Of a stretch of DNA of 64,000 nt, positions 60,258 through 61,163 are shown piece after piece. Position numbers and translations under genes: made by a program. Numbering within the stretch: position 1 is the stretch's first letter; every line of letters begins with the position of its first letter. The DNA lies in contig NZ_AP017560.1 in assembly GCF_003967015.1 (NCBI RefSeq), forward strand, positions 124,001 through 188,000. The letters are read 5' to 3'. The notes under the pieces were generated by a model. It did not search any database and was not told the DNA's origin. It was given only the letters and a program-made list of their open reading frames with translations. The DNA comes from Pseudanabaena sp. ABRG5-3 (GTDB lineage: Bacteria; Cyanobacteriota; Cyanobacteriia; Pseudanabaenales; Pseudanabaenaceae).

Positions 60258-61163
60258 ATGACAAGCAAAATCTACTTAAAAGGCGTAAAAGCATACGGAT
60301 ACATAGGATACCTACCTGAAGAGAATGTATTAGGACAATGGTTTGAGGTTGATGCAACCCTGTGGGTCGATTTTGAAAAAGCCAGCTATAGCGATGACAT
60401 CGAAGATACAGTTAACTATATTTCTTGTATTCGGAAAATCGAGAATCTAATTCAGACTCAGAAATTTAAGTTGATTGAACGCTTAGCTGGGGCGATCGCT
60501 GACAGCCTCCTTGAAGATGAAAAAATTGCTCAGGCTGAAGTAAAAATCATCAAGCATCCCCCAATTCCCAATTTCTTAGGTTCCGTCGCTGTCGAAATTG
60601 TGCGATCGCGCATTCAATCCCAATCAACAAAGGTCACTAACCAACTAGAATCCACCCCAATCCCCAATTCCCAATCCCCAATTCCCAATTCCCAATCCCC
60701 GATTCCTAATTCCACTGAATCCAAAATCATTAGCATCCACACCGACGGAGCCTGTTCTAAAAATCCAGGTCCTGGAGGTTGGGGTGTAGTTGTTCACTTC
60801 TCTGATGGCAGCACTAAAGAACTTGGTGGTGGACTGCGCGAAACTACGAATAACCAAATGGAGTTACAGGGTGCGATCGCTGCTTTAGAATTTCTCGCTA
60901 CTCACAAGCAATCCACGCCTGTCGATCTCTATACCGATAGTAAATACGTCCTAGATGGCATTACCAAATGGATTAAAGGCTGGAAAAAGAATGGCTGGAA
61001 AACCAAAGATAATAAGCCCGTCAAAAATCAAGAATATTGGCAACAACTCGATCCCCTCAATACTTCTAATATCCGATGGCATTGGGTAGAGGGACATTCA
61101 GGTGATCCTGATAACGAGAGATGCGATGCGATCGCCCGCAGCTATACAGCTAAGTTTGCTTAA
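60258..61163 (+). CDS. Fusion of dihydroneopterin aldolase (FolB) and ribonuclease HI
   Basis: 301 residues in one uninterrupted frame. Residues 1-118 are Fol[21 protein letters not shown] with the catalytic Glu near 22, Tyr54 (TVNYISC) and Lys99 ([10 protein letters not shown]). It makes 6-hydroxymethyl-dihydropterin for folate. Residues 119-155 are a linker with [17 protein letters not shown], encoded by a CCCAATTCC tandem repeat. Residues 156-301 are RNase HI with all catalytic acids: Asp163 ([16 protein letters not shown]), Glu202 (MELQGA), Asp227 (YTDSKYV) and Asp290 (RCDAIA). There is no internal ATG near the junction. The two activities are unrelated, so the fusion probably arose when an intergenic repeat lost its stop. 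Confidence 0.9.
60656..60712 (+). repeat. Tandem CCCAATTCC repeat inside the fusion gene
   Basis: Variants of CCCAATTCCCAATCC repeat about four times. Repeats of this type are usually intergenic in cyanobacteria. Here they lie in frame and encode the (IPNSQSP) linker between FolB and RNase HI. Confidence 0.8.

Follow-up and report, generated by a model that had tools for sequence, protein, structure and literature searches.

In mycobacteria, RNase HI is fused to CobC (MSMEG_4305 / Rv2228c); the two domains of this protein were shown to be functionally dissociated, and drift was considered to have fixed their fusion (PMC7466739). FolB, the dihydroneopterin aldolase, is also found in multidomain proteins, namely at the N-terminus of FolB-FolK and FolB-FolK-FolP (PMC4224340; structure 2CG8), where its partners catalyse neighbouring folate steps. 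The joining of reading frames by recoding is illustrated by Thermus thermophilus dnaX, with transcriptional slippage on nine A's, and by Shigella mxiE, in which the run is made of T's and the long product needs slippage (PMC1088944). Finally, filamentous cyanobacteria are known for the STRR heptanucleotide repeats, tandem 7-bp units rich in C and A; the literature examples found come from promoters, intergenic regions or the gene for RNase P RNA. No report of a FolB-RNase H fusion was found in literature searches.

Such a fusion is encoded at positions 60258-61163, on the forward strand, of the window, i.e., the whole stretch of 64,000 nucleotides of Pseudanabaena sp. ABRG5-3 analysed here. 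The ORF comprises 301 codons plus a stop, and its product has a mass of 33.6 kDa, calculated from the sequence. On the sequence the fusion is genuine, given that the Pfam domains PF02152 (FolB) and PF00075 (RNase_H) share a single frame within this ORF. The FolB domain (60258-60611, residues 1-118) contains the Pfam match at residues 5-114 (E 6e-33), a full-length one covering profile positions 1-112 of 113, with 114 bits vs. a curated cut-off of 31.8. Its catalytic residues E22, Y54 and K99 align to those of Staphylococcus aureus 1DHN and of other solved FolB chains. The RNase HI domain (60720-61160, residues 155-301) is matched by PF00075 at residues 158-295 (E 3e-44), again in full length (profile positions 4-138 of 141; 151 bits vs. 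a curated cut-off of 25.8). Among solved structures its top match is Escherichia coli RNase HI, to which the catalytic set D163, E202, D227 and D290, together with the active-site H280, is aligned. All these residues are invariant in the 26 Pseudanabaena genomes compared. Between the domains lies a linker (60612-60719, residues 119-154), predicted to be disordered and quick to diverge, part of which is encoded by a tandem repeat. The first-pass annotation had proposed precisely this arrangement, two enzymes with complete active sites in one frame and a partly repeat-encoded linker, and is borne out on these points.

The similarity to RNase HI-CobC is extensive: in both cases RNase HI is joined to an unrelated enzyme of cofactor biosynthesis, the fusion is restricted to a clade, the rates of the domains differ and the linker is highly variable, with a mycobacterial mean of 55.5 residues (PMC7466739). 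However, RNase HI is the N-terminal domain in mycobacteria, whereas here this position is taken by FolB; moreover, the mycobacterial domains were dissociated by experiment, while the Pseudanabaena fusion is known from sequence. The N-terminal placement of FolB recalls FolB-FolK and FolB-FolK-FolP, but RNase HI, unlike FolK and FolP, stands outside the folate pathway.

A single FolB and a single RNase HI are found in the whole genome, both of them in this ORF, and one copy of RNase HII is encoded elsewhere. The favoured explanation, given a probability of about 0.82, is that the locus encodes a one-chain FolB-RNase HI serving as the sole FolB and the sole RNase HI of the cell, RNase HII being separate. 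A single polypeptide would be made, with both activities working. By analogy with the mycobacterial protein, the chain most likely combines two housekeeping functions that are independent of each other. No sign of a dependence between the activities was seen; a neutral join is possible, as is one that merely ties the level of RNase HI to that of FolB. In the AlphaFold model both domains are confidently predicted (pLDDT ~80-97), residues 120-153 fall below a pLDDT of 50, and the domains have no fixed mutual arrangement (pTM 0.50). FolB forms octamers. In an octamer of the fusion protein, eight RNase HI domains would be tethered together, and the assembly would thus be eight-valent for RNase HI.

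When relatives were compared for separate or fused genes, FolB and RNase HI were found fused in one frame in 26 of the 26 Pseudanabaena genomes searched, that of the window included. Among the carriers are P. biceps PCC 7429, P. mucicola FACHB-723 and P. cinerea FACHB-1277, and the named relatives show 71-88% identity. No broken frame was found in these 26 species, which sets a 95% upper bound of ~11%. Median dN/dS vs. the window sequence is ~0.035 for FolB and ~0.022 for RNase HI, values that are rough because dS is near saturation, and these estimates point to strong purifying selection on each domain. The linker, which is small and partly saturated, gives ~0.57. In the genus alignment mean modal identity is 0.92 and 0.96 in the domains and 0.45 in the linker, which has no invariant position. 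Counted from the FolB end to the RNase H motif, the length of the linker ranges from ~43 to 72 residues across relatives, and the frame is always kept.

The repeat within the linker is a heptanucleotide array at 60655-60713, made of about 8.3 CCCCAAT/TCCCAAT units and coding for PIPNSQS repeats (TRF period 7, 8.3 copies, score 97; 21 bases correspond to three units together). The first-pass annotation had read the unit as the 9-mer CCCAATTCC. TRF and the listing of registers give a unit of 7 bp instead (CCCAATT/CCCCAAT), and a 9-bp unit is ruled out by the period. Since 7 and 3 share no factor, the array codes for the same peptide cycle in all three forward frames. As a tandem, C- and A-rich 7-bp repeat of a filamentous cyanobacterium it resembles the STRR repeats, but differs from their literature examples in being coding. 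Furthermore, no other run of at least three consecutive perfect CCCAATY units occurs in the genome, and the many intergenic copies expected of an STRR repeat were not found when CCCAATY runs were searched genome-wide. The earlier description of the repeat as usually intergenic fits the general literature on cyanobacterial STRRs, but not this genus, in which most of the arrays examined overlap long ORFs.

The linker of the nearest relative compared (G002, 91% identical) has no array, and in other relatives the corresponding position has shorter heptamer stretches or heptamers of a different spelling. Of 27 linkers, 10 showed strong self-similarity at lag 7; no FolB or RNase H domain sequence did. 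The linker is thus a recurring site of heptamer repeats, which decorate an older fusion. The G002 linker also contains an in-frame run of eight A's, possibly prone to slippage. Elsewhere in Pseudanabaena, CCCAATY arrays are found in frame inside or between the domains of housekeeping and other proteins: in GcvP, the glycine decarboxylase P protein, of six genomes (L163, L169, L170, L172, L174 and L181), in a kinase-GUN4 protein of three (L168, L171 and L173), in UvrC of two (L178 and L180) and in a WD40 protein (L166). One genome, G001, has 39 matches to the heptamer-array pattern, far above the rest of the genus (loci including L164-L167 and L182).

A different arrangement is found in two related genera, g4 (G028) and g7 (G031 and G253, both fragmented assemblies). 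In these three genomes the FolB frame crosses exactly nine consecutive A's and ends inside the 22-37 bases that it shares with the RNase HI frame, itself at -1 relative to FolB (overlaps with the A9 run at L118:2081-2102 in G028, L119:973-1009 in G031 and L212:1496-1532, minus strand, in G253). No ATG, GTG or TTG precedes the RNase HI domain in its own frame in any of the three, in the g7 pair a TAA in this frame is placed right where the A run starts, and one added A produces a complete fusion in each case. Exact A9 runs are rare, 34 in G028, 14 in G031 and 14 in G253, and therefore the chance of one being placed in the overlap is ~1e-4 per genome. The features that mark a gene dependent on slippage or frameshifting, i.e., the A9 run, the -1 frame and the lack of a start, are thus found together in three genomes of two genera, and consequently these organisms seem to produce their sole RNase HI as part of a fusion with FolB, apparently by slippage or -1 frameshifting on A9. 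No stimulatory RNA structure was found downstream of the run, where the sequence folds no better than its shuffles (z 0.6 to 1.5), and this favours transcriptional slippage over ribosomal -1 frameshifting.

The nine-A run within an ORF overlap is comparable to dnaX, with its own A9, and to the T run of mxiE, and the dependence of the long product on slippage is comparable to mxiE (PMC1088944). In dnaX and mxiE, however, parts of one protein are joined, while the join here would be between two complete enzymes unrelated to each other, and the folB-rnhA gene of the window, unlike either of them, needs no slippage. With a confidence somewhat above even, it can be proposed that recoding joins two unrelated housekeeping enzymes in this family: at least two genera would reach their sole RNase HI only via A9 slippage at the end of folB, transcriptional slippage would set the ratio of FolB to FolB-RNase HI, and in Pseudanabaena the same join is hard-wired in frame. 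Set against this is the reading that the nine A's are a miscounted A10, the genera being plainly fused in frame with slippage uninvolved. Miscounts of homopolymers are common, one more A completes the fusion in all three genomes, and in the fragmented G031 and G253 assemblies an A9/A10 miscall would leave ordinary in-frame fusions. Yet exactly nine A's recur in three separate assemblies and two genera, one of the three genomes is nearly closed, with two contigs, and the g7 pair has diverged around the run while retaining both the A9 and the stops flanking it before and after; a miscount is thus rather unlikely, although it is the main alternative. Recoding on A9 remains the preferred reading for g4 and g7.

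For the window itself, the array raises the possibility of length changes, and the first-pass annotation had held that slippage could split or join the enzymes, the repeat length keeping the frame. With a 7-bp unit the frame is kept for changes of three units and lost for those of 1, 2, 4 or 5: in simulated slips, gains or losses of 1, 2, 4 or 5 units truncated the protein soon after FolB, while those of 3 and 6 left the fusion intact. A slip would therefore keep FolB and abolish RNase HI, and the proposed splitting and joining is also unsupported because the fusion predates the repeat. From FolB to the RNase H domain the only ATG, GTG or TTG of the window, in any frame, is a GTG at residue 115, replaced by ACG, GGG or another non-start codon in several relatives. 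As there is no usable internal start, a one-unit slip loses RNase HI rather than releasing it, and the freeing of RNase HI as its own protein by slippage is ruled out. The repeat can likewise be discarded as the origin of the fusion, which occurs without the array in sister species and in other genera. A phase-variable switch is still conceivable, in which array slips would turn RNase HI off (1 or 2 units) or on (3 units) with FolB constant; if true, it would create subpopulations differing in R-loop handling or mutation rate. The unit length agrees with this, in that single-unit slips shift the frame and the simulated products keep FolB and lose RNase HI, as a contingency locus requires, and heptamer periodicity recurs at the same linker position in several relatives. 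The idea is nevertheless very improbable: no off-state was seen in the 26 species (0/26, with the upper bound of ~11% given above), the dN/dS of RNase HI is 0.022, the 8-unit array, which many species lack, is degenerate, with C/T variants, and GcvP and UvrC, for which no switching would be expected, contain arrays of a similar kind.

The two activities could also reside on separate proteins, either through cleavage of the linker or through an RNase HI start at GTG115 or at an unusual codon, the joined frame being an operon without a stop. A disordered linker is an easy protease target, and a GTG or other start-type codon stands at residue 115 in many, though not all, members of the genus. This start codon is, however, replaced in the several species mentioned above, and initiation there would leave ~40 linker residues on RNase HI; moreover, the RNase HI frame of G031 and G253 is closed by a stop immediately ahead of the A run and offers no ATG, GTG or TTG, and separate initiation in these genomes would require an unusual codon. 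Separate proteins are therefore considered quite unlikely, and the one-chain FolB-RNase HI is retained as the explanation of the locus.

Within the family, the two genes are found in several states. In g5 and g2 FolB and RNase HI are fused in frame through different linkers, in g8 folB and rnhA are adjacent but separate, and in g3 and g6 they are far apart or on different contigs. In the tree of both domains the family is held together (support 100), as are g1 and g5 (100), while deep nodes have supports of 39-74; the order of the slipped and the in-frame form is uncertain because of this low support. The pair would probably have been joined in or near the ancestor of the family, the join being encoded in frame in Pseudanabaena, g5 and g2 and achieved, apparently, via slippage or a -1 frameshift on A9 in g4 and g7. 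The greater age of the fusion relative to the repeat follows from its presence in all 26 genomes of the genus and in g2 and g5, in most cases with no array of this kind; the Pseudanabaena linker would have grown and decayed later by heptamer repeats, and only net length changes divisible by three bases would have survived. An in-frame FolB-RNase HI fusion is also found in a genome of another cyanobacterial family (G054, L126, 1777-2850), which has a second RNase HI elsewhere; this fusion is probably independent because the tree places it outside the clade of the family, although with low support.

Heptamer repeats are seen here to supply protein linkers. Moreover, one family offers a natural series in which the genes are distant, adjacent, joined by an apparent A9 slip or fused in frame, and how neighbouring genes become a fusion protein is therefore testable. 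The series suggests that recoding can be an intermediate step in this process.
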